In this document: one piece after another, positions 16,301 to 29,541 of the stretch
Position numbering within the stretch: the first letter of the stretch is position 1
Layout of the letters: each line of letters opens with the position of its first letter
IMG/VR virus record: IMGVR_UViG_3300029319_000270
Location: 1-31,918 of that record
Direction: 5' to 3' (one strand)
Length of the DNA stretch: 31,918 nt
Origin: a virus
The notes under the pieces: generated by a model
Databases searched by the model: none
What the model saw: only the letters and a program-made list of their open reading frames with translations
Told to the model about the DNA's origin: nothing
Program-made: the position numbers and the translations under genes

Positions 16301-19300
16301 AAAGATAAAGTTGGAGATGGTTTCTTTGCTGCAGGTCAAGTAATTAGAACTACAGATACTAAAGCAGAAGTTATTGGATATAACCAAGCAAGAAGCACAA
16401 TTTATCTTGGTAAGATTGGTAGAACTAAATCAACAGGTGAAGATTATCACGTTGCAACATTTACTAAAGCAACAATCAATACTGCTAATAAGAAATTTGG
16501 ACAAGCATGTTTAGCATTAACACCTGGTCTTTCTGATCATACTTTTGTAAGTGGTGTCACTGATGCAATTACTGCGAGTGGTGGTGCTACAGGATCGTTT
16601 ACTGCTGCTACTGGAACTACTTACAATCCAGTAACGGGTGATATGGTTCTTGAGATTGGAACACATACTTTGACCACATCAAACACTGTAACTATCGCTG
16701 ATGGTGGTGTCACATTTACATGTGATCAAGATGGTAATGTTTCTGGTAAGGCATATCCCCGTTCAACTGATCCTGCCTCTGGATCTGCTCTTAATATCAC
16801 TGCAGTTACAGGAACTACAATTACAGTTAATGTAGGTGTTGCATCTCCAATAGATGAGTATATCAATATTCCTTCTTCTTCTGAATTTGCATTTGGATCT
16901 GATGCATTTACTATTGAGTGTTGGGTAAAACCATTATCTGCATCTCTAACAAGTGAAAGAAATATTATTGATATGAGAGCAAGTTCTGCTACTGAGGTTG
17001 CAGGTCGTTTGTATCTTAATGCTGCTCAGTTACGTTGGAATGTAAATGGTAGCGATCTTGTTAACACAGGTGCGACAGTACTTGCTGCTAATACTTGGTA
17101 TCATGTTGCAGTTGTTAAATCTTCTACAACTACTAAGATCTACATTGATGGTGTAGAAAGAGGAACAGGAACTGACTCTACCACATACACTGCTAAACCA
17201 ATTAGAGTTGGTATGGATTACGCAGGTGCTAATGGATTTGCAGGTTATATTGATGAATTAAGAGTATCAACTACAAACCGCTATACAGGTGCGTTCACTG
17301 CTCCTCTAGGGGTCTTCCAAGGTGATGCTAATACAAAACTACTATTCCACTTTGATGGTGCTAATGGAGACCAGTTTACACAAGATTGGTCTGGTACAAA
17401 TGACTTTACTAAGGGTGAAGACTTTAATAATGATGCCATACTTGAAACATCAAGATTAACTGGAACTCCTGCAGGTTTTGCTGCTAAATCTCAAAGATAT
17501 TATGACGCTGCTGATCTAATCATTGCAAATACAGACTTGATTAAGAAAGAAGTTGTATATCAAATGAGACAGAGATATCCTGAGTTAGTAATCTTAGGGA
17601 CTCGTTATACACCAACTGCTGCAACTTATGATGCTGCTACTGGTCTATTGTCTATGACAGTGACTGGTAACAGTCTAGAAAATGGTGGAACAATAACTCC
17701 TCAGACAGCAACATACGACGCTGCTACTGGTGTAATGGTAATCACTAAGTTGGCACATGGTCTTAAGAATGGTCAAAGAGTCAATATCAAGGTTGGTGGT
17801 ATCACGTTTACTTGTACACAAGATAGTAATGCTTCAGAACATTCATATCCAAGATCAACTGATCCTGTAGCTGGTAAATGGATAAAAGTTGCTAACGTAA
17901 CTGATCATACATTTGAAGTAAATGTTGGTGCATCTCAAGTTGGTCAACAATACGCACATACATTCGTTTCTGCTCTTGCTAATGCGATTACTGTTGAAAA
18001 AGACAGAATTAAGATTTTAGATAATGCATTAACATTCACATGTGCGATGGATGGTAATACTTCTAATAAAACTTATCCTCGCTCAACAGATCCTGCATCT
18101 AAAGATGTTGCTCTTCCAATCATATCTTCTAGTTCTACTAACTTAACAGTTAATGTAGGACCTTCTCCTCTAGTTAATTACCAACCATCTAACGCAACCT
18201 ACGATCCTGCAACTGGTGCATTTGTAATGACGATTGCTAATCATACAATCAATGTTGGAACACAAATTAGATTGACTGCAGACTCATTTACATTTACTTG
18301 CACACAAGATGGCAACAGTGCACAGAAGACTTATCCTCGTGCAACTGCTGGTGATGGATCTCCTGATCCTGCATACAATACTGCTCTTGATGTAACCGCA
18401 GTCGGTACAACTACACAAGATATCAGTAACGCAGCATACAATCCAGTAACAGGTATTTTGACTGTTGATACTAACTCTGCTCATGGATTAACTACAGGTA
18501 ATAGAATTCAAATCGCAGATGAATCACTGAAGTTTACTTGTGCTTATGATGGCAATGCAACTCAGCATGATTATCCTAGACAGACTGATCCTATTAGAGG
18601 TGAATGGATTGAAGTGACTGTTGTTGATAGTGATACATTTACTGTTGATATTGGAACCTCTAGTGACACTTCTACTCACTCATTTGTATCTGCAACTGCT
18701 GGTGCTTTAATCAAGCAAACTGGAACTGTAACTATCAACGTTGGTGTTTCTGCACAGGCAGATCAATATGCTCATACATTTGTATCTGCTGCAGCAAATG
18801 CAGTTGTTACTGGTGGTAACTACTTACATACATTTGTTTCTGCTGTTGATAACAGTGTCATTGGTGATGAAGGTATTAACTGTGAAGATGATATTCGTGA
18901 CACATTAAATGCAATCGTTCAAGATCTTCGTAACGGATCTAATAATCATATTTGGGATGCTGCATCTTACTACGTTAATAGAAATGTTAATCCAGTTACA
19001 ATCGCACAGATTGAACCTGCAGTTAAAGAAACATTATTTGCTTATGAAAAAGTTGATGATATGCTTCAGTACATCATCACAAATACTCTTTGGACAATTC
19101 AAGGTGATCATGGATTGACACAGAAGACTGATACTACAATTACAGATTCTTCTAATCCAACATACACATATTTCCAACCAACTGATGCAACTTACGATCC
19201 TGCCACAGGTGACATGGTGTTGACTATTGGTTCTCACTCACTTACCACTGCTTCTAGAGTTGACATTGCAATCGGTGGTATCACATTTACATGCACTAAA

Positions 19301-22300
19301 GATGGTAATGCGACTAACCATTCTTATCCTAGGGCAACTGATCCTGCTGCTAACGCTGTTCTTGCAGTTAAATCTGTTGTTGCAAACACATCTATTACAG
19401 TTAATGTAGGTAAATCTGGTCCTAATGATCAATATGCTCACACATTCGTTTCTGCTAATCAAAATGCTGTAAGAGTATTGGATTACACAACAAGTGATTG
19501 TGCAGACGTATTTACAACTGTTGGTAACTTAATTGATATTCTCACAGACACAATTACAAATGCATCTGCTAATCCAGCTGTTGATCATTTAGCAAGTGTT
19601 ACTAGAGTTGAACCAAAATATGAATTTGTTGGTGGAACTGTTGATTCGTACTTAGATACAGAATTTACTTCTACATATCAAGACACAACAAATGATATTC
19701 TTTACACTAATCAAATTGATCTTGACACTAGAGCTAGATTTAGAGATTCTGCAAGATTAATTCGTTCTAATCGTTCTGTAATTGTTGATAAAGCAGCTGC
19801 TGATATGTTGGCAAGATATCCTGCTCTTGCTCAGGATATGCCTAGAAACCAAAATGGTGGTAGCACAGATGGAACATTACGTTGTAAGACTGACCTTGGA
19901 CTAATCCTTGATGGTCTTGCTGATGATGTAGAGAATGATGGTAATTTAGGAACTGTTACTGCTGCTAAGTTCTACATTGGTAATAGCGGTGAGTTATTAC
20001 ATATTCGTTTACAAGTATTCCAGTCAGTTTATGCTCATGAGCGTCTTGCTGAGTATGCTAAACAAGCAGTTCTAGGAACTTTAGATTATACAAATACTGA
20101 TAATATTATTGTTGGAAATTGGGGTGTTGCTGGTGCAGGTACTCCTAATTACTTTGATGCTGTTACCACTTACATTGATACTCTTGTTACAACTATCAAT
20201 GATATTATTGCTCCTACAGGTAATGATTTTGAGATTGGTGCTGATAGACTTTACTTTAATAGAGATTGGATCACTGATGAAACAACTGCATACACAACAA
20301 TTAATTTCCAGTATTCACTTAACGGTGTAAATTATAATGCATTTACATATGGTGCTGGTGAGCAATTACTTGCTAGAAATGCTCTTGAGGATCTTCTTTT
20401 AGCTGTTATCTCTGATCTCCAAACAGGTGGAACTAACTCTACCATTCAAGAAATGGAGAAATATTTGAATGCAAACTTGACTATTAATAATACTGTTATT
20501 GCTGAGAAAGCACTTGCTGCAAGAATCTACTCTATTGAAAAACTGAAGACTATTGGTGAATATGCAATTAAGAACTATGCATATTCATTATCTGAAGCTC
20601 CAGTAGCATCTCCTAATTATGCTGCGATTTACACAGGAGAAGTAGCTTACAGAGATACTGAAAGTCCTGGTGATATTAACGCTGTAGCATTTAGATTCAA
20701 AGAGTTAATTGATATTGCAGTGAACATTCTTGCACCAGGTAAAAATATTGCTAGAAGTGCTGCTAAGAATATTCAATATAATACAAACTATTATAAGAAT
20801 GAAATTTCAAACCAAGTTAATGCTCAGTTTGGAACTGGTGCTTGGGTATATGATGACTTTATTGATGAGTTAGTTGATAACTTTGTATCTGATAGTATTA
20901 CAACTGATGTTACTAAAACGTCTGATGCATATACAATTACCTTAAGTGCACAAAATGGAACTGACTTTATTGTAGGTGAAGTTGTTACTTCTAGTGGTGG
21001 TGGAATTGCAACAGTACTAGAATGGGATTCTGAAAATGATTTATTATATGTCGGACCATTTACTTCAACTGCATGGGTAGCAACAAACACTCTAACTGCT
21101 CCTAGTGGTGCTACAGGAACGATTGCAAGCGGTGGTGTAAGTAGTGCTTATACTTGGTATACTGAAGCTTCAAACGTTGAGTATCTTAAGAGTGCAAGAT
21201 CTATTACTAGCAACATTGCAGGTCAAGTTTCTGGAACTAATCTTTGGACTAATCCAGAAGCATTTGGAACTAACTGGACTGAAACTAATCTTACTAGAAC
21301 AGATAATGCTTTCGCTGGTCCTGACGGAACATTAACTGCAGAAAAATATGTTGGACAAAATGGTGTAGCAGGTAATCATATCTTACATAGAGACTTTAAC
21401 TTAACTGCTTTTGAAACCTTTGATACTGATGGTGTTAAGTTTGACTCTACAGGTGAAACCTTTGACACTGGTTCTACTAGCGATGTATCTCAAACATTCA
21501 CTGCATCTGTATTCTTTAAAGCAGTTGGATCACAATCTGTTAGATTTAAGTTACAACTTGATCAAGGACAAGCAGGTGAGCAAAATATATTCTTTGATCT
21601 AAATCTTACTAATGGAACTATCGGATCTCTATTCATACCTCAACTCGGTATTACTGGAGATGCTTACGGTGCAATTCCTTATGGTAATGGTTGGTATAGA
21701 GCATATATTACAGCAACATTCTCCTTCGGTTTCTCATCTCTTAGAACTCAAGTAACAGTCAATAGTTCTGCAGGTTCTCAATCTTGGACTGGAGACGGAA
21801 CTACTGGTGTATATTTCTGGGGTGCTAAACTCAATAAGGGTGCTGTTGATCCATATACAGCAGTTGGTGGTCAAATATTCTATGCTAATACTGAGTACAA
21901 TATCAAGAATTACACTATAGATCTATTAGAAGGATATATGGGTCAAGCACTTGATGGCACATTAACATCTCCTTCACCAAATGCAGGTTTCTATAGTTAC
22001 TATGATTCTACTGCAGCGAGTGACTATGCAAAGATTTCTATTCAAAGACTTCTTAGATATGGATTAAATATCATCCGTAATCAACTTAATGTTGATACTT
22101 ACTATACAACTATTACACAAGTTAATGGTATTTCTGTTCCTACTAAGACATACGGAACTAGAGATATTCCTGTTGGTGTTTCTGGTGGATTAACTTCTTC
22201 AGATTACATTTATGGAACTGTAAGTAGTCAATATGCTGAAATAGAAAGTGTACTTGAAAACTCTGGTAAAGTTGTTCAAGTTTATCAGAGATTCCGTATT

Positions 22301-24130
22301 GATGGTGATATCACAGACGGTCCTTTTACTATGAATGAAGTTGTTGCTAAACAAGGTAATCCTTCTGTTACTGGTGTTGTATATGGTTTCTTTGAAGATG
22401 AAAACTATAAATATCTTGATGTTCGTATAACTGCAGGTCCTTGGGCAGTAGCAGATAATATTGTTGGTGCTAATAATTCTACAACAGCACAAATTAGTGC
22501 AGTTGAAGATAGACTTCATATTATTGATCTTAAAGGTGCTTTTGCTGATAATATTCCATTCAAGGGATATACATCAGGTGCAACTGCAACACCTACATCA
22601 TTCATTAAATCTGAAGCAGCAATCATTGATAATACTGGTGGTAAATTAACTGTTGATACTGCATCTTTATTAGGAACATTTGAAACAACTACTGTTGTTT
22701 ATCCAGAATCTTCTAGACAGTATTTGGATGTTGTTAAGTTCTCTGGTCTTGATATATCCGTTGGTGATAGAATTGCATCCACAGGATATAAGAGACTTGG
22801 TATTTCTATTATAAGTGGATTGAATGTATTTGCTGAAGGTAATAGACTTTATAAAGTTAACTCAGGTATTCAAGATACAAGTACGTATGCGATTATTACT
22901 GAAGTTGACCTTGATAACAATTTCATTTACATCGCAGAATATCAAGGAACATTTACCAATGGTGACATAATTGGTGATTATGGTGTTGGTGCAAGTTTCC
23001 CTGTAGGATATGCTTCTGTTCTAACTGCAACTGTAACTGCAGGTCAGGCAGCTGGTCTCGTTCAAGACATTCGTGATGTTGGACTTAATAAGAGATTATA
23101 TCTTAGTGATGTTGTAGGAACATTTGATGATAAAGATGGACTCAAAGGACCAGATTCTTATGGATCTGTAATTATTGGTAAGGTTGAACTTAAAGCTCGT
23201 GTCAAACGTTCCTTTAGAGGATTTGATGGAGTACAAACTACATTCAAACTTACTACAGATAATGGAACTCAGTATCTACCAGATCCTGCAGGTCATCTAT
23301 TAGTATTTGTCAATGGTATTCTACAACCACCAGGTGCTACTAACGCATATACAGCGTTCTCTGATACTATTCAGTTTACTGAAGCACCTGATCTTGGAGC
23401 ATCGTTTACAGGATTCTATGTTGGTAAACTTAGACAGTTAGATGATATATCATTTGAGTTTGATTCATTACGTCAGTCATTTAACTTGAAACGTAATGAT
23501 GTATTCTACTCACTAACTCTTACAGAGGGTGTACAATCTAGTGTTATCAGACCTGAGAATAATATCATCGTTTCTCTTAATGGTGTTATTCAAGAACCAG
23601 GCGTTGGTTTTGAGATTGTTGGTTCTAGAATCATCTTCTCTGAGATTCCTAGATTTGGATCAACCTTCGTTGCATTCTCTTATGTTGGTTCTGAGGCAGA
23701 CGTTGATGCTGCTGAAGTTATTCCACCAATCGAACCTGGTGACTTTATTGATATTCAAGGTGAGACAGCAGATAGACAAGTTGCTGTTATTGAATCTTCT
23801 AACTCCTTGATCACATTCGATTATCTCGGATCTGTATTTGGTCAAGGTGCTGTTGGTCAATCAGTAATTACCTCAGGATTTATTAAGAATGTTCAAGTAA
23901 CATCTGGTGGATCTGGTTATACATCAAGACCTACTGTTAGACTTGATTCTATATCTGGTTTTGAAGGAAATATTAAGGCACTTGTTGGGGTAGCAGGTGT
24001 TGAAATGAGTGCTGCAGGTTCTGGATATCAAAATCCTGCAATCAATGTCGAGACTACAGTTCCAGATGATTGGACTGCTCCTGACCTTTCATTGTATGGT
24101 GAAGAGTTAGTAGACCCCGAAACCCCATAA
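4319..24130 (+). CDS. Giant (6,603-residue) mosaic baseplate/tail protein at the gene 7 position
   Basis: A single uninterrupted frame of 19.8 kb, product roughly 0.7 MDa. Modules in order (approximate residues): family N-terminus with PAFVENDYPLFNKFIEYYY at 15-33; two short beta units (LIVSLYGKVLVPNIDYTI-type) at 140-300; GSGY repeats 300-620; conserved helical module with IKTIKDFYMAKGTSFS around 690-710; GSGY repeats 1122-1345; YHYH domain 1360-1550; EF-hand-like loop 1607-1618; probable beta-propeller 1828-2205; LamG-like 2210-2420; GSGY repeats 3003-3237; conserved QDSYYYQDFSY/VHPASF module 3452-3490; TFTC repeats and a second LamG 4070-4357; helical units and more TFTC repeats 4390-5550; jelly-roll-like domain 5635-5860; C-terminal beta units ending with two GSGY repeats. 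Gene order (25, 6, this, then 8) puts it where T4 has gp7 (1,032 residues), but homology to gp7 cannot be shown by eye. An alternative is a fused baseplate-rim and fibre protein. There is no signal peptide or Shine-Dalgarno; ATG lies 6 nt after the gp6 stop. Confidence 0.9.
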   Translation: MNINKVSQSIVNQTPAFVENDYPLFNKFIEYYYRSQEKTGLGQNILNEFLQYLDIDKLNIDVLDGATKVVESFTTTDDEIVVESVDQFLENDGSVLIGNEVIYYEKTTHAPNIALSPGISYEQVKLKWTNLASPIDSFDDSTTAFNLTSQDSPIAAPSAQHLIVSLYGKVLVPNIDYTISGTQIVFTTAPRTRIPADDASSTYITYLSGFVENPIVGIDNLSSAFGGGKTQFTITRNGTRYEPVADEYILAVYDNRLLVPKVDFFLDGDQFIFLTAPLNGRFLSLYSIEAPIPSFGSNAVGYSRVNDAGELTSVSINANGSNYRFEYPPQVSVNSDAGSGASVSSLVNGIKTISLIDGGKGYSETNPPIVQVQTPTKPGSTAAVLKATVSNGAVSGLEVLTSGSGYTFTPRITFRQPGGATLGTCPIVNGQVVGTIPITDGGFGYTTVPTVYIDEPTGVNGIRAALEAVLTDGVITSINILNAGQGYETTPRIAVIDPVGAQVLETTVDNDGRVIGIELLNGGSGFDDIPSVYIVDSRTDGQGNYAGGTGATATAAIFNGQITDINVTAFGTGYSQTSPPKVVIQSPPEARASAEIGLNEVTGFTVNQKGTGYSKAKFIGCARAASGITDYTEDGNAVFTNNTIAATGAVDASVKCLDALFVKRLLDKYTEQYLPDVPELDYKKIDVRTSIKTIKDFYMAKGTSFSISYLFKLLYGEQVSISYPKDQIIKPSAATWSIDTILRATLVSGNPVDIRDGLLTQDADIADPNIKAASALVENYISIKTSDVEIFELVLSEETINGTFVVPYKTKLAEPLNTTESIITVDSTIGWPERNGEFIIGGTEVVQYKEKSLNQFIECTRSVNNIVEDWDSATEVASSFQVFVNKGTPQEVVLKVVGIVDAQQTTLTDTGSYYLPGDKLTVSKLGGTGISPELTTWLYNVKKLISVTDISYGGVNNQSATVTCSNPHGLLVGDQVTIYGANPILFNGTFEVTSRDSTTVFQYQLPQPATVVPQGNILVSVDLNKGKSDDTPVLNSIGPYTTNVQNSFFNTEYVYVASTGIPNYKIGPFPGSALLPGNQRKLNRFPLTPVTISTKNTINPGPIGTWVNGVSIWSYKSSIKKTFGAVTSIDITNAGSGYDAASPPNITISGGSGTGATASVVVNGSISEITVTNGGSGYTSSPLVSIVGGGGSGAAATAIITKGVVSRILINDGGTGYTSQPSITIVGGGGLGATGTANVRGPIQSIAVSSGGSSYTSKPSVVLSSGSGAVAQAIVQNGRIISIAIISAGSGYTTAPTISIQGEGFGAVARATIDVDGENAGRVTGITIINRGIGYTQGTTIINLTSVGQDAAFNANVFEWTYNLQETSTLDAAKGGVFEGFNAQYGGEYAHPSNPQTLRYILGDNLFKNTQQQIKEQEDQLVHSPIIGWAFDGNPIYGPYGYSDPTDQNSSIARLNTSYRLKTELVYDANTNPYPVRTAGPLLTAEAAGRFVEDYEYIFSLGDLDQYNGRFCKTPEYPTGRYCYFVTIDTTEDGNPLFPYILGPSFNSVVDSWNLNADAVQQNIPTGVVRYRDPYENVDIDVERAPNASTNALTTEDGDLLLFEIEDEDRSGVIDQAEIDDPDQIFEESPLQLFDYFPKVKLDSKVDIEVETITKFEDASVTGFTIENPGVSYQVDDRLIFDNTGTDGTGVSARVSRIVGESVLSYGFENVNGNNFGVLKTTNPHNLVAGDTVFIDYEPIMNNTNKTFVVRQFKGIEEIVVNQTGSGYNSDIPPVITIVPRDGAGTSGHLQAVVTSVGSIDTVNILNSGSGYTQNPRVILSHPQIFKKADYYVSKIENQNYVKVNDVVVNIDKEVYICGITQDATNNKVGFVAKLSATGVKEWEKTLESTDGTYYTEFQKLYVDGTSIWVVGNNRPNSSLLDAYNPDVILAKYTEAENGLSATLNLQKAYAGISGATRADHVTALEKYSDTRFIIGGFTNTNSGAPYDAYLALVDTSGNFALKRKIASANASEKITDIIINGTDVYFSMETATSANATAVNASFGKATIGTNAITVAWIKEYTNTLYSFIDVACCIDEFEEVYITSTLRLKSNNTTRDSFWVGKVDTDGDLIWNYRYLVSGGQISMAGKCSIDIFGDLNVTFGKTATSDSLKTTESVKIGYDGAIKNHTTNQFNLNNIEGITPYGIATDNSGDVHIFGQSSWNRNEFIFPFTSGSNADTTGHYTLTSTSTNNSITYADNVAKIFGYQTGQTSWTQANLQITSAQLGTKLGDNWTLEMMLYKDSTTTSLSQTQQTIFAIGDAEDATGGLWLYYDMSSGHLELAVTNQTTKLNSASSALQSGSTTMFANNSWQFISLVKNGNTFTAYVNGLQALTGTVANTSLGGKDLYVGNIPGRSTTAGQFRSNEQGTYYVDNLRLRNRAVTPTVPSDVTTFPTVGLFGFTFDWVDDAWFTTNLNQYDYIDYTGWGIKVDKNADAARIGTQTLQTNTQVGFIRTNVTPVTGSTLTMVTTGYALGDAGFQNLDFDDATTTMSQDTETLTYTQDVWSSRTATVPSPGSQKLSVTAVVKDRYYFKVTPTLKIDNVQELTLNQSFRFTTGAKLRLNNDSGQFVNSGYIVNQDTTNNKIYVAINNNAWSNDTNTGLLVTEQFSEQSSYGIVGPIPNDVNEIVGYTFPQINNTTPGTFDINLNDYNHPEGGSNNLDELAKFKPHSDIDYSIRIDEVAAGSPFIVGSVVFITSSDISFNAAYTTAQITNLTAVLKITLVANLTKRLQVSSVANSDEVYVITSNSHYLNPGEMLFIDGNPSVEQGGVTYDEYDGSFPVDRVISSKEFVYKLPQAAVTSPATTGSSVNIFVKSPVIKMYNGHQYLFDLSHSSMVGGNLSFSKDNLNKLEYSFNSIERVGTPGVTGEGVPNPTVKLKVDNTIVTNISYYFDPSRTGTDSPIVEGSYLDVTNSPYLGNFVITSTSGQTITRGADTFKFSLINEPEGDADITQTSYTTSSVKAVGSIGAVRIVNSGGFYTRLPIVSSIQSNRQIERVAINTPGTEYAVGVYNGVPIGGDGEGGLVQITVSDGTDDEGGVIPGQISEVVVTSPGKGYTTATIDIEAIDGILGAGLTGSGAELEVVIPAFGSGASIFTKGDKVGKIKKLKNNNFGYDYPHDYTLRPEITFPINAQLTSTSILASITVTNPGSGYSQAPTVVITGGGGTGAVAESTIRNGRLDQIIVKDPGSGYSSTPTVALRSAFNYVVNLDLGLLQFAFPHGITNGSAVTVTVTDTGSGADFPLAAGAVGRLNSTTTYYAIAGTANSLEDDQLKLALTPANAELGDALSFVNAGEGRQTVLTESFGGAATANVITSTFLEGELVYQGDSLETATAQGFVSTNQGWQIGPRVLKIVDYTGDFSQGQKVTGVISKSSGTISDLNIAKGVLEIGSITKTTGQFIDDVGKPSEIIQKIQDSYYYQDFSYAIKSAVSIGEWKDILIKNVHPASFKVFGELNLSDYGSIPNKTTDFSITKSVELAREAIVPNIQNFALVEPVYSEFNNTEVLFRQKRLTSSENILTSVVQRLDDISNLFDGERISFPLTVNTDNVVANANQLMIVLNGVVQNPGTSFQIQGDSIVFSEPPQPPASIKYVNVSINQIATKDLSFTNISGIFPLVGNTLVGTVSLARLTVTKVVGDVVSGFITQGTFVVGELVNVGATGFAANIAAVTDVTSNGLYAFGETVTNLTGETAIVEQINLATGQETPLAQLRYTIGPSTTSIEVVAYKTNNATADQVVPDNTFVATKNYQFGSEIFRVDSITNGSESTTLGVTRAQSGTAASSQQEDVPVYGTDIQVTGALTLSKTAGTYQSTPGLFDIQLNDYIIGASSGVVSQITATSAYQDPATQEFISQVNISEGSSFFGLLFNRITSQTYPNVVLDNISQSQVSIVQFQNNTTAFDFDFPNNEILNSYVIPYDNLVTGPIQQDETIRNYKLDYGNSSGDFNVGEICNVRKLAFKDKVGDGFFAAGQVIRTTDTKAEVIGYNQARSTIYLGKIGRTKSTGEDYHVATFTKATINTANKKFGQACLALTPGLSDHTFVSGVTDAITASGGATGSFTAATGTTYNPVTGDMVLEIGTHTLTTSNTVTIADGGVTFTCDQDGNVSGKAYPRSTDPASGSALNITAVTGTTITVNVGVASPIDEYINIPSSSEFAFGSDAFTIECWVKPLSASLTSERNIIDMRASSATEVAGRLYLNAAQLRWNVNGSDLVNTGATVLAANTWYHVAVVKSSTTTKIYIDGVERGTGTDSTTYTAKPIRVGMDYAGANGFAGYIDELRVSTTNRYTGAFTAPLGVFQGDANTKLLFHFDGANGDQFTQDWSGTNDFTKGEDFNNDAILETSRLTGTPAGFAAKSQRYYDAADLIIANTDLIKKEVVYQMRQRYPELVILGTRYTPTAATYDAATGLLSMTVTGNSLENGGTITPQTATYDAATGVMVITKLAHGLKNGQRVNIKVGGITFTCTQDSNASEHSYPRSTDPVAGKWIKVANVTDHTFEVNVGASQVGQQYAHTFVSALANAITVEKDRIKILDNALTFTCAMDGNTSNKTYPRSTDPASKDVALPIISSSSTNLTVNVGPSPLVNYQPSNATYDPATGAFVMTIANHTINVGTQIRLTADSFTFTCTQDGNSAQKTYPRATAGDGSPDPAYNTALDVTAVGTTTQDISNAAYNPVTGILTVDTNSAHGLTTGNRIQIADESLKFTCAYDGNATQHDYPRQTDPIRGEWIEVTVVDSDTFTVDIGTSSDTSTHSFVSATAGALIKQTGTVTINVGVSAQADQYAHTFVSAAANAVVTGGNYLHTFVSAVDNSVIGDEGINCEDDIRDTLNAIVQDLRNGSNNHIWDAASYYVNRNVNPVTIAQIEPAVKETLFAYEKVDDMLQYIITNTLWTIQGDHGLTQKTDTTITDSSNPTYTYFQPTDATYDPATGDMVLTIGSHSLTTASRVDIAIGGITFTCTKDGNATNHSYPRATDPAANAVLAVKSVVANTSITVNVGKSGPNDQYAHTFVSANQNAVRVLDYTTSDCADVFTTVGNLIDILTDTITNASANPAVDHLASVTRVEPKYEFVGGTVDSYLDTEFTSTYQDTTNDILYTNQIDLDTRARFRDSARLIRSNRSVIVDKAAADMLARYPALAQDMPRNQNGGSTDGTLRCKTDLGLILDGLADDVENDGNLGTVTAAKFYIGNSGELLHIRLQVFQSVYAHERLAEYAKQAVLGTLDYTNTDNIIVGNWGVAGAGTPNYFDAVTTYIDTLVTTINDIIAPTGNDFEIGADRLYFNRDWITDETTAYTTINFQYSLNGVNYNAFTYGAGEQLLARNALEDLLLAVISDLQTGGTNSTIQEMEKYLNANLTINNTVIAEKALAARIYSIEKLKTIGEYAIKNYAYSLSEAPVASPNYAAIYTGEVAYRDTESPGDINAVAFRFKELIDIAVNILAPGKNIARSAAKNIQYNTNYYKNEISNQVNAQFGTGAWVYDDFIDELVDNFVSDSITTDVTKTSDAYTITLSAQNGTDFIVGEVVTSSGGGIATVLEWDSENDLLYVGPFTSTAWVATNTLTAPSGATGTIASGGVSSAYTWYTEASNVEYLKSARSITSNIAGQVSGTNLWTNPEAFGTNWTETNLTRTDNAFAGPDGTLTAEKYVGQNGVAGNHILHRDFNLTAFETFDTDGVKFDSTGETFDTGSTSDVSQTFTASVFFKAVGSQSVRFKLQLDQGQAGEQNIFFDLNLTNGTIGSLFIPQLGITGDAYGAIPYGNGWYRAYITATFSFGFSSLRTQVTVNSSAGSQSWTGDGTTGVYFWGAKLNKGAVDPYTAVGGQIFYANTEYNIKNYTIDLLEGYMGQALDGTLTSPSPNAGFYSYYDSTAASDYAKISIQRLLRYGLNIIRNQLNVDTYYTTITQVNGISVPTKTYGTRDIPVGVSGGLTSSDYIYGTVSSQYAEIESVLENSGKVVQVYQRFRIDGDITDGPFTMNEVVAKQGNPSVTGVVYGFFEDENYKYLDVRITAGPWAVADNIVGANNSTTAQISAVEDRLHIIDLKGAFADNIPFKGYTSGATATPTSFIKSEAAIIDNTGGKLTVDTASLLGTFETTTVVYPESSRQYLDVVKFSGLDISVGDRIASTGYKRLGISIISGLNVFAEGNRLYKVNSGIQDTSTYAIITEVDLDNNFIYIAEYQGTFTNGDIIGDYGVGASFPVGYASVLTATVTAGQAAGLVQDIRDVGLNKRLYLSDVVGTFDDKDGLKGPDSYGSVIIGKVELKARVKRSFRGFDGVQTTFKLTTDNGTQYLPDPAGHLLVFVNGILQPPGATNAYTAFSDTIQFTEAPDLGASFTGFYVGKLRQLDDISFEFDSLRQSFNLKRNDVFYSLTLTEGVQSSVIRPENNIIVSLNGVIQEPGVGFEIVGSRIIFSEIPRFGSTFVAFSYVGSEADVDAAEVIPPIEPGDFIDIQGETADRQVAVIESSNSLITFDYLGSVFGQGAVGQSVITSGFIKNVQVTSGGSGYTSRPTVRLDSISGFEGNIKALVGVAGVEMSAAGSGYQNPAINVETTVPDDWTAPDLSLYGEELVDPETP
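5218..6180 (+). repeat. GSGY repeat block 1 of the giant protein (about 8 units)
   Basis: Encoded units of about 35-45 residues share the pattern: short beta strand, Gly-x-Gly-Tyr (GKGYSE, GSGYTF, GFGYTT, GQGYET, GSGFDD, GTGYSQ, GTGYSK), then Pro-x-V/I-x-I strand, Gly/Ala loop, and a nG-x-I/V-x-x-I strand. The units are diverged rather than identical, so they are old. The block lies between the N-terminal signature and the KDFY module. Confidence 0.8.
6270..6560 (+). other. Conserved helical module of the giant protein (KDFYMAKGTS)
   Basis: Residues about 651-747. It holds FVKRLLDKYTEQYLPDVPELDY, then K695-D696-F697-Y698 followed by AKGTSFSISYLFKLLYGEQ and SYPKDQI. I recognise this R/K-D-F-Y-x-x-K-G-T pattern, together with the residue 15-33 signature, from large structural proteins of marine T4-like phages. 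These two segments define the family to which the N-terminal half belongs. Confidence 0.65.
7685..8350 (+). repeat. GSGY repeat block 2 of the giant protein (6 units)
   Basis: Six consecutive units: GSGYDAAS, GSGYTSS, GTGYTSQ, GSSYTSK, GSGYTTA and GIGYTQG. Each has a P-x-I/V-x-I strand and a GGGGxGA loop. This is the most regular array in the window and the best template for a profile of the repeat. Two isolated units follow at about 9600-9780 (GSGYNSD, GSGYTQN). Confidence 0.85.
8400..8960 (+). other. YHYH domain within the giant protein
   Basis: Residues about 1360-1550. The first half has SPIIGWAFDGNPIYGPYGY. The second has LDQYNGRFCKTPEYPTGRY, then FPYILGPSFN. These are the characteristic YHYH-domain segments (D-G-x-P-I-Y-G-P and Y-N-G-R-F-x-x-T-P-E-Y-P). 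The tetrapeptide that names the family is Y1522-C-Y-F1525 here, so both His are replaced. The domain's biochemical role is not known to me. Confidence 0.75.
9137..9172 (+). other. EF-hand/dockerin-like calcium loop in the giant protein
   Basis: Residues 1607-1618 read DEDRSGVIDQAE. This matches the 12-residue EF-hand loop pattern (D at 1, D at 3, S at 5, G at 6, I at 8, D at 9, E at 12). It lies in a strongly acidic linker after the YHYH domain. Only one loop is visible, so calcium binding is an inference. Confidence 0.5.
9800..10935 (+). other. Probable beta-propeller domain in the giant protein
   Basis: Residues about 1828-2205 contain repeated short motifs of the kind 'evYicGi... vGFVAKLsatGvkeWekt', 'IWVVGNN... 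DVILAKYT', 'FIIGGFT... DAYLALVDTSGNF', 'VYITSTL... FWVGKVDTDGDLIWNYRYL' and 'VHIFGQSSW'. The recurrence of a beta strand plus Gly, then a vaKld-G-W strand is typical of SBBP/PQQ-like propeller blades. The number of blades is not certain (five to seven). Confidence 0.6.
10945..11580 (+). other. LamG/concanavalin-like domain 1 in the giant protein
   Basis: Residues about 2210-2420: NWTLEMMLYKD, GLWLYYDMSSGHLEL, SWQFISLVKNGNTFTAYVNG, then YVDNLRLRNRAVTP. These are the standard strands of the LamG/ConA-like jelly roll. Such domains often bind glycans in phage fibres, but no ligand can be named. Confidence 0.65.
13325..14030 (+). repeat. GSGY repeat block 3 of the giant protein (diverged)
   Basis: Four looser units: GGFYTR, GKGYTT, GSGYSQA and GSGYSST. 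Acidic and Gly-rich loops between them (GGDGEGG, DGTDDEGG) are not seen in block 2. The block precedes the QDSYYYQ module. Confidence 0.65.
14640..14800 (+). other. QDSYYYQDFSY / VHPASF module of the giant protein
   Basis: Residues about 3441-3494 contain IQKIQDSYYYQDFSYAI (Tyr 3455-3457) and VHPASFKVFGEL (His 3482). I associate this pair of motifs with the distal part of the same marine phage protein family whose N-terminus opens this gene. Here more than 3,100 residues follow it. Confidence 0.55.
16440..17390 (+). other. LamG-like domain 2, interrupted by a TFTC repeat
   Basis: The opening strand (ATINTANKKFGQACLAL, about base 16465) and the rest of the fold are in one frame. The rest is YINIPSSSEFAFGSDAFTIECWVKP, then WYHVAVVKSSTTTKIYIDGVERG, then GYIDELRVSTTNRYTG, from about base 16858. 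Between them lies one HTFVSG/TFTC repeat (about 16530-16855). Without the insert the LamG fold would be continuous. Confidence 0.6.
17480..20950 (+). repeat. Duplicated helical units in the giant protein, with TFTC insertions
   Basis: Unit part 1 occurs at about 17494-17610 (RYYDAADLI...MRQRYPEL) and 19735-19830 (RFRDSARLI...MLARYPAL). A trace appears near 20750 (IARSAAKNI). Part 2 occurs at about 18876 (INCEDDIRDTLNAIVQDL), 19877 (LRCKTDLGLILDGLADDV) and 20375 (ALEDLLLAVISDL). Each part 2 is followed by a helix like YAHERLAEYAKQA, IYSIEKLKTIGEYAI or FAYEKVDDMLQYI. These are diverged copies of one alpha-helical module. Confidence 0.6.
17623..18870 (+). repeat. TFTC/HTFVSA repeat array in the giant protein
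   Basis: About four to five diverged units share ATYDPATG-x-x-V/M-T-I, a glycine turn, F-T-C-x-x-D-G/S-N, three to five residues, Y-P-R-x-T-D-P, a T-V-N-V-G strand and a QYAHTFVSA end. FTC/YPR pairs occur near bases 17807, 18037, 18290 and 18530. A related unit precedes LamG 2 (16617-16860) and another lies at 19178-19475. Each unit carries a single Cys. Confidence 0.75.
21220..21900 (+). other. Jelly-roll/carbohydrate-binding-like domain in the giant protein
   Basis: Residues about 5635-5860: NLWTNPEAFGTNWT, TFTASVFFKA, GNGWYRAYITATF, then GVYFWGAKLNKGAVDPYTAVGG. The N-x-W opening, the W-Y/R-R strand and the closing 'G-V-Y-x-W-G-A-x-L-x-x-G' strand are typical of phage-fibre jelly-roll domains related to carbohydrate-binding modules. 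The ligand is unknown. Confidence 0.5.
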
Positions 24131-24153: not shown

Positions 24154-25374
24154 ATGGCTAAACAATCCCTAGGTCTTGGAGCATCAGCTAATGATAACAC
24201 AGGTGATACCCTGAGAGCTGGTGGTGACAAGATTAACGACAATTTTAATGAGATATATACCGCTATTGGTAACGGTACAAATTTGAATATCTCTTTATCT
24301 AATCCTGCCAGTGGTCAGGTTCTTAGATATAATGGTTCAACATTTTTACCTTCAGACTATAGTGCACTAACTACATCTCTGGATGTAGCAGGTTATTCTA
24401 TTATATCCTCTTCTAATGGTAATATAAATCTCAATCCGAATGGAACTGGTAATGTATTAATTAATAATGGAAGTATTGTTAACACTTTTAATGGAACTAC
24501 AGGAGTTGTAGACTTTCCAACAAAGATTCAATATAAAAATGAGTATGATGCTTTAGGAAATGCACCAGCTGCTGCATCTTACACTGGATACTTTTTTACT
24601 GTTGATGGTGACGATAATCCATATGTTAACATCAACATAACAGCTGGTGGTGTTGGTGATACCAGAGCAAAACTTCTTACTGAATATTCTAGTATTGATG
24701 CACTAAGTGACGTAGATATTACAACAGTAGCACCAACTGCTAACCAGATTTTAAAGTGGAATGGATCAGCATTTACACCAGCTGATGAGACTGGTGGTGG
24801 TGCTGCATCACAGAACATCTTTGCATCCGTAGCGGGTGATACTGGTTCAACAACTGCTGACAGCACAAGTGATACCTTAACTATTGCAGGTGGAACTAAT
24901 ATTACAACAGCAGTTTCTGGAGACACACTCACAGTTAACTTCAGTGGATCGTTATCTACGACTCTTGCTGCTCTTACTGATACAGATGTTTCTGGTATTA
25001 CTCAAGGTGATTCGCTCTTTTATAATGGAACTAATTGGACTGTTACTAGATCTCCTATTACATGGTGGGAGTTGACTGCACCTGACGCATCTGGTTATAA
25101 CTTTACAGGACCAGGTTTCGCGGCTGCGACAGCAGATCCTACTTTATATGTTATGAGAGGAATGACATATGCTTTTGATAACAATGCTGGTGGTGCACAC
25201 CCATTTAGAATTCAAAGCACACAAGGTCTAACAGGAACTCCATATACTACAGGTCAGACTGGTAGTGGAACTTCAGTTCTTTATTGGACTGTTCCTATGG
25301 ACGCTCCTAATACACTGTATTATCAGTGTACAATTCACGCAGCGATGGCTGGTCAAATTAACGTAGTTTCATAA
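24154..25374 (+). CDS. Tail-fibre-like protein with a C-terminal cupredoxin domain
   Basis: 406 residues. The N-terminus SLGLGASANDNTGDTLRAGGDKINDNFNEIY is a module common at the start of marine phage fibre and baseplate-attached proteins. Three copies of a fibre repeat follow: GQVLRYNGSTFLPSDY, NQILKWNGSAFTPADE and DSLFYNGTNWTVTR, the last two preceded by LSDVDI/LTDTDV. The C-terminal ~95 residues look like a cupredoxin: a strand TLYVMRGMTYAFDNN, then H349 in GGAHPFRI, and finally C392, H395 and M398 in YYQCTIHAAMAGQI. The Cys-x2-His-x2-Met spacing equals that of amicyanin's type 1 copper site, and the His-to-Cys distance (43) is near amicyanin's 39. All four ligands are present. Copper binding and any redox or adhesion role are inferences. 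ATG 24154 is the first in frame after a stop; no clear Shine-Dalgarno, but a late-promoter-like box lies just upstream. Confidence 0.85.
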   Translation: MAKQSLGLGASANDNTGDTLRAGGDKINDNFNEIYTAIGNGTNLNISLSNPASGQVLRYNGSTFLPSDYSALTTSLDVAGYSIISSSNGNINLNPNGTGNVLINNGSIVNTFNGTTGVVDFPTKIQYKNEYDALGNAPAAASYTGYFFTVDGDDNPYVNINITAGGVGDTRAKLLTEYSSIDALSDVDITTVAPTANQILKWNGSAFTPADETGGGAASQNIFASVAGDTGSTTADSTSDTLTIAGGTNITTAVSGDTLTVNFSGSLSTTLAALTDTDVSGITQGDSLFYNGTNWTVTRSPITWWELTAPDASGYNFTGPGFAAATADPTLYVMRGMTYAFDNNAGGAHPFRIQSTQGLTGTPYTTGQTGSGTSVLYWTVPMDAPNTLYYQCTIHAAMAGQINVVS

Positions 25375-25377
25375 TAG

Positions 25378-28300
25378 ATGACAAGAACTGTTCCTGGTAC
25401 TGGTGCTGTAATCAACCCCATCTTCGATGAAGTATTTGGGGTTCGTGCGGTTGAAGTTACGAATGGAGGATCTGGATACTCTCCTACTGATCCACCACGT
25501 CTAACCATAACTGGTTGTGGAACTCCAACGAGAGAGGCAATTTTATATCCGATTATTGACACTGATTCTGGTAGAATTATTCATGTTCGTGTTTTAGATA
25601 GAGGTCTAGGATATGATCCTCTAAGATTACAGATCATTCCTCAAGATGAAACTCCTAACGTTGTTAATTCATTTGACATCAATAGAATTTGGCAATCACA
25701 TCCAAACTCTCCTACTACAGGAACTTTCACAGGAACTACAGATAGACTTAGAATAGTATCTGATAATCATCCTAAACCAACTTGGACATTAGCAGAAGCA
25801 GCACCTGGCGGTGGTCCTTTAGTTGATAGGTCTTTTGATCAATCCTTTATATTTCGTGGTGGTAAAGATGTTCCTAATCCAGGCATAAGAGCATTTCAGA
25901 ATGATAGAGTAAATGGTATATTAGCAAACGGAGGTCTGTTACATACACCTGAGTGGGGTGTAGATGGTAATGCTCCAGCTGGTCAACAGATTGATGTAGT
26001 TAAGTATCCATATGTTAAATCTATGGATGATTATGATGTTGTCACTGAAAATAATATTAAGTATTATCATTCAAACAAATTAATTTCAGAGTTTGAATTA
26101 GAAAATGGTGTGTTTGATTGGGGTAATGTTCAAGTATTTACTTGGAATGTTAAAGTTGAAATGGATAATATTGTTCTTGATGTAACTGAAGTAGATGAAA
26201 CTTTAGGTGCATTTGAAGTAGGTAGAATAGTTGACGAAGTATCTGGTAATGCAAGAGGAGAAGTAGCTAAGGTTGTAAGAAATAATCAGAACGTTGTAAC
26301 AAGAGTTTATTTAAGAAATGTATCTACTGGTGCATCTTTTTCTGATCAAGATGTTTGTTTAGGTTCAAATGGATTTCAGTTCAAAATAAATGCTGATCCT
26401 ATTGCACTTACAACAGGTGTTTTTTATATTGATTTTGGAACAGATGCAGATGAGTTTGGTCCTTTTGTACCAGGTCAATATTATTTTGCTCCAGAAAATA
26501 TCAAAGTTCAAAGAAAGTATCTAATTATTTGGAATCAATCAGACTCATCTAATCAACAAGGTGCAGGTCATCAGATGCAGTTTAGTCTTACTCCTGATGG
26601 AATTCATAATGATTCACCAGGTACTCTCTACTATCAAAGCACTGGTGTATCACAAGCACCTGCTGCGGATTATGAAAATGAGTATGCACCTATCTTCATA
26701 ATGAACGGTGACGAAAGTGCTAGAATTTATTATTACTGTAAAAATCACCCTAACATGTCAGGTTATGATGGTGATGAAGGATATATGATTTTAGATCCTA
26801 CGATCGAAGATCATGCAATGCCTAATAATTATTATGCTGCAGATTTTTATCAGTCAGATTCAAATGATCCAAATACTATAGATAGATCACGTCATGTAAA
26901 TGGACATTCCAAAATTCTTGGTATGTCATATGATGGGTATCCTATTTACGGTCCTTATGGATATAATTCTATCGGTGCTGTAGCAAGAGAAGTATCATCA
27001 TATCGTTTAAGGACAACTGCTGAATTAGCAGGTAATAGACCGCAGGTAAATACAGTATCTACTGTTACATACGCTGTAACAATTTCCAATGGTCAATTTA
27101 TGTTTGATGGTTCTCGTCCATCATTCTTAGATTTGGATCGTGGAAAAACATATATTTTTAATCAAAATGACTCATCTAATGATAGTCAACATTTATTAAT
27201 CTCAACTACGGACGATGGATGGCATGGGCAAGATCCTGTTGTTATTGGGAATACTGCAAATCTGTATTCTGGTAATGGAATTAAATATTATATTGACGGT
27301 TCCGAGGTAACCTATCAATCATATCTGTCAGGATTTAACTTGGCAACCACTCGTGAACTTAGGTTCACAGTTCCTGTTGATTCGCCTGCACAGTTATTCT
27401 TATTTGCATATACAACTGCGGGTCATGGTATTAGAACTGTTCAAGAAGGATATGTTTTAGGTGATTTAGTTGGTGATTATATTTACGATTCTTCTGTAGG
27501 AACACTAGATGAATATAATGGTAAGTTTGACTCTACACCTGAGTATCCAAACGGAACATATGCATACTTTATGACAGAGGATAGTAGTGCTAATCCTACA
27601 TATCCATACGCTATTGGTCCTAAAATGTATGGCACACCTGTTGCTGAAGGAGACACGCTACCACCAGTATCAACTACATTCCCAACTCTTGCTGAAGGTG
27701 ATGTCATCTTAAATGATGACGGTACAGTTTCTTATGTCAAGATGACAAAGAAAGGAGATAATTACTTTGGTGCTGCTAGAGCAGAAATTTTAGGTGGACA
27801 AGGAACAGGTGCTGTAGGATCTCCTATTGTTCAAACTGTTACTGGTTTATCTCTACTTACAGCAGGTAGAAGTTATGCAACTCCTCCAACACTTATCTTT
27901 GAAGGTGGTGGTGGACAAGGTGCACAAGGTGCTGCTGAAATTGATACTTTAGGTAGAGTTACTTCTATTAGTATTGCAGATGATGGTGAATTCTATCAAG
28001 AACCTCCTTTTGTATTGATCACTGGTGGAGGTGGTATTGGTGCTAAAGCAGTTGCAACAATAGATCAAGGTAAAATTAGTAGCATTACAGTAACAGATCC
28101 TGGTAGTGGATATACATCTGCACCAAATGTTATCTTCACTAAATTAGTAAATCTTAAACGTAAAGCAAGAGCACGTCAGGCAAATAATTCAGGTACAATT
28201 TACTTAACTGGTCTCGTTAAAAATGTAACACCATCAGACTCAACAATATATGTTGATTCTACAGATGCATATCCTGGTTCTGGTCAAATTATTCTAAATA

Positions 28301-29541
28301 AAGAGACTATCACATACACTTCTAAAGCAGCAGGTGTATTCTCTGGTCTTACTAGAGGTGTAAACTTTAATTATGATCAACGTGTAATTCTTGATGCAGG
28401 TCAAAATGATTCACAAGGAAACTCAACTTACAAATTTAATGTTGGTGACCGAGTAATCCGTAAAGTTGAGAACGCAAATAATAAAGTTGCAAAGGTATAT
28501 GACTGGAATCCTGCTACAAGAGAACTTTTAGTTACTTTTGAAGTTGATGAATTAGCATTTATTGATGGTGGTAGACCTTCTACTGAAGATGCTATCGTTC
28601 AATTTGATGCAGGTGTTGCTGCATCTTCTGGACCAGGTGTTCTTCCTCATACCACTGAGGCAAATGTAGGAAGTAGTATTTCAACATTAACAGTTCCTAT
28701 TGGAGTAATCGCAGATACTAGATTTGTTGATATTGCTGAAAATGCTGGTGCTGGTGATGGTATACCAGATTTAGACAATACTAATACTGATTTCTTAAAT
28801 CAGATTAGTCTTGATGGTGGTATCTACAGTTCTTTATACGGTATTGAGGAAACTCAAGGTGGTCAAAACACTACCTTATTCCAAGTTGGTGACAATATCA
28901 AAGATGGTAGTATTCCATTCAAGTTTGCAAGTGTTGATACAGCAGGTGCATTAAGTGATGGTGTTGAGCATAATGCAGGTCTTAAGATTTTCTTAGATGC
29001 AACAAATGCTAATGGACAGAACTATAGTGTTAACGAAGTTGTCACAGGTTCTGTATCAGGTGTTCAAGCAACAGTAGTATCTTGGGATCCTTCTGAGACT
29101 TCAGTTGTTGTTCAGAACGTAGTCCCATATAACACAGGTAATATTGCTATTGGTATTGCTGGTTATCTTTATGAATTTTCACAGAAAGGCACGATTGTTG
29201 ATTTCAATGTTCAAAATCCAGGTACTAACTATTCTGCTCCTCCAACAGTTGCGATAGAAAATACTGGGGACATTCAAGCTACAGCAACAGCAGTTCTAAC
29301 AACTGCAGGTGACCAAGTTGCTTCATTAACAATCAATAATGGTGGGTATGGTATCCCACAAACAGTTGACGGAACTTATAACGTACACCCTACAGTAACA
29401 TTTACCAATGCAACTGGTGATACTACTGGTGCAGGTGCAGTTGCACAGGCAATTCTAGGTGGAGAAAATCTCGTTGGTAACGCAGGTGCAACCTATCGTA
29501 TCAAGAGAATTGAGTATCTAGCAACTGTTCGTTCAAAATGA
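25378..29541 (+). CDS. Large tail protein with cupredoxin, YHYH and GSGY modules
   Basis: 1,387 residues starting 3 nt after the previous stop, with no Shine-Dalgarno, so probably coupled. Order (approximate residues): GSGY repeat (GGSGYSPTDPP, 26-36); unassigned region with many Asn/Asp; cupredoxin-like domain about 370-470 with H398 (AGHQMQF), C454, H457 and M460 (YYYCKNHPNMSG), a complete type 1 copper set. A YHYH domain follows, with first half 509-555 (DGYPIYGPYGY) and second half 708-750 (LDEYNGKFDSTPEYPNGTY, then YPYAIGP). A second, Cys-less cupredoxin-like stretch (561-692) lies between the halves. Then come GSGY repeats 788-927, an 'IILNKETITY...LTRG' unit near 970, and a C-terminal GSGY pair. 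The YHYH tetrapeptide is Y728-A-Y-F731. The gene lies between the fibre gene and gp8, so a baseplate-attached position is likely. Exact function unknown. Confidence 0.85.
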   Translation: MTRTVPGTGAVINPIFDEVFGVRAVEVTNGGSGYSPTDPPRLTITGCGTPTREAILYPIIDTDSGRIIHVRVLDRGLGYDPLRLQIIPQDETPNVVNSFDINRIWQSHPNSPTTGTFTGTTDRLRIVSDNHPKPTWTLAEAAPGGGPLVDRSFDQSFIFRGGKDVPNPGIRAFQNDRVNGILANGGLLHTPEWGVDGNAPAGQQIDVVKYPYVKSMDDYDVVTENNIKYYHSNKLISEFELENGVFDWGNVQVFTWNVKVEMDNIVLDVTEVDETLGAFEVGRIVDEVSGNARGEVAKVVRNNQNVVTRVYLRNVSTGASFSDQDVCLGSNGFQFKINADPIALTTGVFYIDFGTDADEFGPFVPGQYYFAPENIKVQRKYLIIWNQSDSSNQQGAGHQMQFSLTPDGIHNDSPGTLYYQSTGVSQAPAADYENEYAPIFIMNGDESARIYYYCKNHPNMSGYDGDEGYMILDPTIEDHAMPNNYYAADFYQSDSNDPNTIDRSRHVNGHSKILGMSYDGYPIYGPYGYNSIGAVAREVSSYRLRTTAELAGNRPQVNTVSTVTYAVTISNGQFMFDGSRPSFLDLDRGKTYIFNQNDSSNDSQHLLISTTDDGWHGQDPVVIGNTANLYSGNGIKYYIDGSEVTYQSYLSGFNLATTRELRFTVPVDSPAQLFLFAYTTAGHGIRTVQEGYVLGDLVGDYIYDSSVGTLDEYNGKFDSTPEYPNGTYAYFMTEDSSANPTYPYAIGPKMYGTPVAEGDTLPPVSTTFPTLAEGDVILNDDGTVSYVKMTKKGDNYFGAARAEILGGQGTGAVGSPIVQTVTGLSLLTAGRSYATPPTLIFEGGGGQGAQGAAEIDTLGRVTSISIADDGEFYQEPPFVLITGGGGIGAKAVATIDQGKISSITVTDPGSGYTSAPNVIFTKLVNLKRKARARQANNSGTIYLTGLVKNVTPSDSTIYVDSTDAYPGSGQIILNKETITYTSKAAGVFSGLTRGVNFNYDQRVILDAGQNDSQGNSTYKFNVGDRVIRKVENANNKVAKVYDWNPATRELLVTFEVDELAFIDGGRPSTEDAIVQFDAGVAASSGPGVLPHTTEANVGSSISTLTVPIGVIADTRFVDIAENAGAGDGIPDLDNTNTDFLNQISLDGGIYSSLYGIEETQGGQNTTLFQVGDNIKDGSIPFKFASVDTAGALSDGVEHNAGLKIFLDATNANGQNYSVNEVVTGSVSGVQATVVSWDPSETSVVVQNVVPYNTGNIAIGIAGYLYEFSQKGTIVDFNVQNPGTNYSAPPTVAIENTGDIQATATAVLTTAGDQVASLTINNGGYGIPQTVDGTYNVHPTVTFTNATGDTTGAGAVAQAILGGENLVGNAGATYRIKRIEYLATVRSK
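27061..27455 (+). other. Degenerate cupredoxin-like domain nested inside the YHYH domain
   Basis: Residues about 561-692: strand TYAVTISNGQFMFDG, then FLDLDRGKTYIFNQNDSSNDSQHLLIST, LRFTVPVDSPAQLFLFAY, and AGHG. The layout (strand, 'GKTYIFNQND', His strand, 'FTVP..SPxxLFLF') parallels the copper-ligand domain of the same protein (RKYLIIWNQSDSSNQ..GH). The Cys-x2-His-x2-Met loop is replaced by a sequence without Cys, so no type 1 site can form. Confidence 0.55.

Follow-up and report, generated by a model that had tools for sequence, protein, structure and literature searches.

Profile comparison and structure prediction identify the last ~100 residues of gp9, a baseplate protein of a T4-like cyanophage, as a genuine cupredoxin domain in which the type 1 ligand set is complete. 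The gene (24154..25374, + strand) lies in the window, i.e. the whole 31,918-nucleotide stretch of viral DNA analysed here (IMG/VR record IMGVR_UViG_3300029319_000270), and its 406-residue product is a gp9-like connector between the baseplate wedge and the tail fibre. The predicted copper ligands are conserved in a near all-or-none manner throughout a family of domains found in marine phages, bacteria and archaea.

The PHROG model phrog_677 ('baseplate wedge tail fiber protein connector') spans residues 1-405 of the 406-residue ORF (E 2.2e-192, a full-length match), and PF07880 (T4_gp9_10_N) matches residues 3-101 with 39.6 bits against a curated cut-off of 25 (E 7.3e-10). With phmmer the protein matched T4 gp10 (2fl8, E 3e-5) and T4 gp9 (1pdp, E 1e-4), and the N-terminal segment common to T4 gp9 and gp10, which in T4 attaches to the baseplate, covers approximately residues 1-43 (24154..24282, +). 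The nearest isolate homologue is gp9 (T4-GC398) of Synechococcus phage S-SM1 (Kyanoviridae, Thetisvirus), whose cupredoxin domain is 92% identical to that of the window, and the gene order gp6, giant protein, gp9, T4-GC 399, gp8 is the same in the window and in S-SM1. By sequence, the ORF is gp9 of T4-like cyanophages, and its identity together with the gene order indicates that the window is the baseplate region of such a phage. According to PHROG annotation and the S-SM1 gene order, gp9 and its neighbours are tail genes.

Several observations concern these surroundings. In the giant ORF between gp6 and gp9 (4319-24130, 6603 residues), a baseplate wedge domain accompanies a YHYH domain (E 6e-33); its positional counterpart in S-SM1 is a member of gene cluster T4-GC969, one of 41 virion proteins reported for S-SM1 (PMC3037559). 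At 1155-1697, a 181-residue PAAR-like protein (phrog_281, classed as moron in PHROGs) adjoins gp25 and gp6 and is here located within the baseplate cluster. A contig filed under a prokaryote genome bears cyanophage gp9 together with T4-GC399, which could reflect either a binning error or host-associated phage DNA.

In T4, gp9 is present in 18 copies per virion, which form six trimers on the baseplate periphery; its N-terminal domain attaches to the wedge protein gp7, the long tail fibre docks coaxially onto its C-terminal domain, and upon tail triggering gp9 swivels along with the fibre (PMC3004832). Because the protein is gp9, whose C-terminal domain receives the fibre in T4, the cupredoxin site is placed, by analogy, at the base of the fibre at its joint with the baseplate. 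The initial annotation had located the domain at the tip of a tail fibre, which is ruled out by the gp9 identity of the protein (phrog_677, PF07880 and S-SM1 gene order). A model of full-length gp9 was poor (pLDDT 56), and the position of the domain within the trimer is accordingly taken from T4.

Fold and predicted copper site of the C-terminal domain

The cupredoxin domain comprises residues 304-406 (25063..25371, +), as delineated by AlphaFold2, Foldseek and comparison of a family profile with the PDB. The AlphaFold2 model of residues 297-406, calculated with an alignment of 99 relatives, had a mean pLDDT of 93.2 and a pTM of 0.85. In this model, strand 351-354 lies just after H349, strand 387-392 ends at C392 and strand 399-405 begins right after M398, which in the predicted structure is the classical cupredoxin arrangement. 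The best Foldseek matches in the PDB were rusticyanin (2.7e-5), Hyphomicrobium nitrite reductase, laccases, amicyanin (4.1e-4) and plastocyanin (7.3e-4), with a probability of 1.00; T4 proteins did not appear among the model's top 50 fold matches in the PDB. Model and fold search together show the features of the cupredoxin superfamily, namely a Greek-key sandwich, a Cys ending a late strand and the last ligand before the final strand. TM-scores against single-domain cupredoxins were moderate (~0.5-0.6, rmsd ~5 Å), indicating that the loops are unlike those of any one classical cupredoxin.

Sequence profiles led to the same fold. Profile A1, built from 15 diverse members that share ~30-54% identity with the window domain, matched plastocyanin (1.6e-5) and amicyanin (5e-4) in the PDB, along with rusticyanin, auracyanin and copper nitrite reductase. 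Profile A2, built from 99 family members, gave 14 matches, all of them to type 1 copper proteins. As a control, the four ligands were replaced by X in 13 members; 12 out of 13 matches were still cupredoxins, albeit weaker (best E 0.007). The similarity to cupredoxins is therefore not due to the motif alone, and a match produced by the letters CxxHxxM only is ruled out; at the profile level the motif nevertheless contributes much of the match. The cupredoxin fold that had been claimed from the sequence is thus confirmed by AlphaFold2, Foldseek and profile A1, and structure prediction and fold search of the C-terminal part did not yield a fold whose topology places the four residues apart.

The first predicted ligand, H349 (25198..25200, +), is located in the stretch HPFRI, aligns with the ligand His of Prochlorothrix plastocyanin (1b3i) and is invariant in A1. 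The putative thiolate ligand C392 (25327..25329, +), the second His ligand H395 (25336..25338, +) in the loop after the Cys and the axial Met ligand M398 (25345..25347, +) were assigned from A1, the 1b3i alignment, the sequence clusters and the AlphaFold2 model. In the A1 alignment the H, C, H and M of the family fall onto the four copper ligands of 1b3i, so that this alignment and the conservation in the family place a Cys, a pair of His and an axial Met in the register of cupredoxins, as is typical of type 1 sites. The four residues, the C-x2-H-x2-M spacing and the flanking HPFRI, LYYQC and MAGQI were all found in the ORF translation where the initial annotation had put them, and its proposal of an amicyanin-type loop spacing in a virion-type protein was borne out, with ligands that align to plastocyanin. 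H349 is followed by Pro. Small blue copper proteins usually have Asn or Ser after the first His, and His-Pro resembles the type 1 sites of multicopper oxidases. Topology and alignment together support a predicted type 1 copper site in the gp9 domain.

Conservation and distribution of the ligand set

CxxHxxM is kept in 81 out of 81 gp9 loci (80 homologues and the window's own). Exactly seven columns (G, H, P, Y, C, H and M) are invariant among the 15 members of A1, and in 347 unique domains the three columns with the highest conservation are those of M (99%), H (99%) and C (98%). Grouping at 70% identity gave 77 clusters in which the C-terminal part was aligned, and 71 of these have all four ligands. 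In two of the six exceptional clusters the first His was unaligned, one had Gln and one Ser in place of the Met, and two lacked both the Cys and the second His (NAQM and HNTM), one of the latter having lost the first His as well. Free variation of the ligands among close homologues, which had been named at the outset as an argument against a copper site, is thus contradicted by both the gp9 loci and the clusters.

When domains were chosen via YYxCxxHxxMxGxI alone, a selection that placed no condition on the upstream His, this residue was present in 137/140 viral domains and, among the matches listed, in 105/105 cellular domains. The codons of the ligands vary synonymously in 59 distinct gp9 sequences (His, 26 CAC and 33 CAT; Cys, 37 TGT and 22 TGC); as this set was chosen by motif, it shows only codon drift under a fixed residue. 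A chance motif is ruled out by the family-wide conservation and the fold. A conserved stretch of 7-10 residues is absent from this family of domains, and the collections were therefore scanned with single divergent members and a DNA pattern as queries.

The gene following gp9 (25378..29541, +) encodes a baseplate wedge subunit (phrog_708; T4-GC 399 of S-SM1) with two cupredoxin copies. The first copy (residues 364-463; 26467..26766, +) has the intact ligands H398, C454, H457 and M460, and H-C-H-M is found in 13 out of 13 rows of its alignment (12 distinct sequences). The second copy (residues 557-681; 27046..27420, +) is degenerate and lacks the Cys; in the window it has lost all copper ligands, and the four ligand positions vary freely across the homologue rows. 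Ligands are retained at an apparently equivalent place in S-RIM14 and ACG-2014d, and the homology of the second copy is weak by an independent profile (E ~0.01-0.14). Judged by sequence, the second copy can serve as a natural ligand-less internal control beside the intact first copy. Since no columns of the family are better conserved than those of the ligands, and since the first copy of the neighbouring protein is fixed while the second drifts, we interpret the conservation of the ligands as selection for metal binding. The same protein contains a YHYH domain (PF14240, residues ~692-737), which also occurs in the giant ORF before gp9.

At E 1e-5 the domain was detected in 327 of 50,697 phage records, nearly all of them cyanophages, and the gp9 body in 307 phage records. 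Besides gp9, the phage carriers include proximal tail fibres (in P-SSM2, two domains within a single protein), subtilisin-like and amidase-containing proteins, long structural ORFs of P-HM1 and MED4-213 and a tail fibre of a Pelagibacter phage; many metagenomic phage carriers match tail, baseplate and virion PHROGs, and predicted structures of viral proteins gave the same picture. A motif scan of genomes yielded, among the matches listed, cellular carriers in Flavobacteriia, SAR86, other Gammaproteobacteria, Nitrososphaerota, marine Euryarchaeota and others. According to a crude rule, a signal- or lipobox-like N-terminus was present in 51 of 77 complete cellular carriers (among the matches listed), and the same rule assigned a signal peptide to 1 of 212 phage carriers. 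At the sequence level, the module is thus common to marine phage virion proteins and to secreted proteins of marine bacteria and archaea, and the blue-copper-like domain initially regarded as a rarity of one phage turned out to be family-wide, with 327 phage records and cellular members. A tree of 157 phage and cellular domains was poorly resolved, with 18 changes between phage and cell labels at best fit; only 2 of these are forced by strong branches, which leaves the direction and number of transfers unsettled.

In SAR86 (two contigs) and Flavobacterium (two), the same family occurs in small lipoproteins or multidomain surface proteins (E 1e-23 to 1e-31); one small SAR86 lipoprotein was searched and had no Pfam or NCBIfam match. 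Matches in BFVD included A0A481Z6J5, A0A481YWX9 and A0A481YY19, which are named 'Beta-sandwich proteins' and come from Pithovirus- and Marseillevirus-like giant viruses (E ~1e-7 to 1e-6). Based on these predicted structures, it is possible that giant viruses have cupredoxin-fold proteins.

Possible role of the site in the virion

On balance, we lean towards a copper-stabilised docking or adhesion module that receives its metal after virion release and serves a structural or adhesive purpose, not a redox one. As in T4, trimers of gp9 would be anchored to the baseplate by their N-terminus, with the cupredoxin domain facing outward where the long tail fibre docks; if the T4 arrangement holds, there would be three cupredoxin domains per fibre joint. 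Since the protein lacks an export signal and assembly takes place in the cytosol, where copper is scarce, each domain would take up its single copper ion after release of the virion or lysis. Binding would stiffen the ligand loops, which are located at one end of the sandwich and may contribute to a docking or adhesion surface. We favour such a role since the varied carriers make a single redox partner improbable, while a surface sandwich firmed by a metal would suit all of them. Judging from sequences and models, marine phage particles bearing this domain may carry copper.

A working redox or host-contact copper centre on the virion surface appears unlikely to us. Such a centre would engage host-surface copper or an electron-transfer protein, as a copper counterpart to the 'Trojan horse' proposed for iron in tail fibres, or act as a contact switch. 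It would agree with the retention of all four type 1 ligands, the axial Met included, with the presence of the domain in exposed virion proteins of many phages, those of tail and baseplate among them, with the secretion of the same family by marine bacteria and archaea, and with the receptor-decoy role already proposed for iron-bearing tail fibres of marine phages (PMC11705849). However, the carriers (gp9, tail fibres, subtilisin-like and amidase-containing proteins) are too diverse for one redox partner, and the gp9 domain is positioned at the base of the fibre, away from the receptor-binding tip.

Binding of another soft metal, or of Cu(I) only, by the Cys-His-His-Met set (e.g. Zn, Cu(I)) seems quite improbable. 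The ion would in this case be taken from the host cytosol during folding and would lack type 1 Cu(II) chemistry, in line with a protein that is made in the cytosol with no signal peptide and with the two clusters that have Gln or Ser at the Met position. Yet few residues are conserved as strongly as the axial Met, which is kept in 97-99% of the domains, whereas a zinc site would not need a thioether Met, and both the fold and the loop match type 1 proteins. Least probable of all is an Ig-like sandwich for adhesion or docking that descends from a cupredoxin and whose relic ligands bind nothing: cupredoxin-fold modules can lose copper, as the second copy of the neighbouring protein did, but relics would be expected to drift, as the ligand positions of that copy do, and the ligands are instead the most conserved positions in gp9, in the first copy and in the phage and cellular members.

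Taken more broadly, we tentatively consider it possible, if rather doubtful, that many marine phages, above all T4-like cyanophages, carry functional type 1 copper centres on the virion exterior, either for redox chemistry or host contact or as a latch at the fibre joint that depends on the metal. If this is true and the copy number is as in T4, gp9 alone would contribute on the order of 18 copper centres per particle, and these phages would constitute a class of copper-binding particles in the sea. If copper is bound, marine phages of a widespread class would have metal centres in the joint coupling host recognition to tail firing, as well as in hundreds of further virion proteins, and copper would join the debate on iron in tail fibres. 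Bound copper would also provide a spectroscopic handle, i.e. virions that are blue or absorb near 600 nm, and the copper dependence of cyanophage infection would be directly testable in cultured phages.

Comparison with known copper proteins and phage proteins

The window domain scored under the cut-off of PF00127 (Copper-bind, 21.2 bits), the second domain of P-SSM2 reached 21.0 bits, and 3 of the 99 members of A2 matched PF00127 at E <=0.01 (best 9.5e-7). NCBIfam gave no match for the window domain, and a bacterial relative attained only 25 bits with the amicyanin model TIGR02657 (cut-off 110 bits). As the scores stay below the curated cut-offs of both PF00127 and amicyanin, the domain is not filed as amicyanin or plastocyanin. 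None of the Pfam, NCBIfam and PHROG models met in the searches is specific for the family, so that in annotation the domain goes unseen or is mislabelled as plastocyanin. No description of a phage virion cupredoxin, type 1 copper or plastocyanin-like domain was found in the open-access literature; the gene itself is already annotated, and the domain with its intact copper site is apparently undescribed in that literature.

Amicyanin and plastocyanin (PF00127) share the cupredoxin fold with the gp9 domain, which has the His...Cys-x2-His-x2-Met pattern of amicyanin and ligands that align to plastocyanin. They differ from it in having His-Asn instead of His-Pro and in being soluble exported carriers, whereas the gp9 domain belongs to a virion protein that has no signal peptide. 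Plastocyanin is also known as an auxiliary gene of cyanophages, petE, which belongs to the same superfamily with the same ligand set and encodes a separate photosynthetic carrier (PMC3037559). The gp9 cupredoxin is in contrast a module of a structural protein, and its fusion to a baseplate protein rules out a separate petE gene. In Synechococcus phage S-SCSM2R, a protein annotated as 'PetE' (PQ898602.1 170926-171432) lacks a signal peptide, ends in the virion cupredoxin domain and adjoins an S8 peptidase, as does the gp9-annotated gene of S-SSM7; from its sequence it is probably a mislabelled structural protein and not a photosynthetic carrier.

T4 gp9 has a homologous N-terminal segment, and the cyanophage gene is likewise situated near gp8 among baseplate genes. 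The match to T4 extends at most over approximately residues 1-101, and the C-terminal domain in the window is a predicted cupredoxin. Iron-binding HxH tail fibres, i.e. T4 gp37 and gp12 of Alteromonas phage R22Y, resemble the gp9 domain in that metal ligands are found in a phage tail protein with a proposed metal role in the sea (PMC11705849), but they have octahedral, His-only iron sites in fibre trimers of an unrelated fold.
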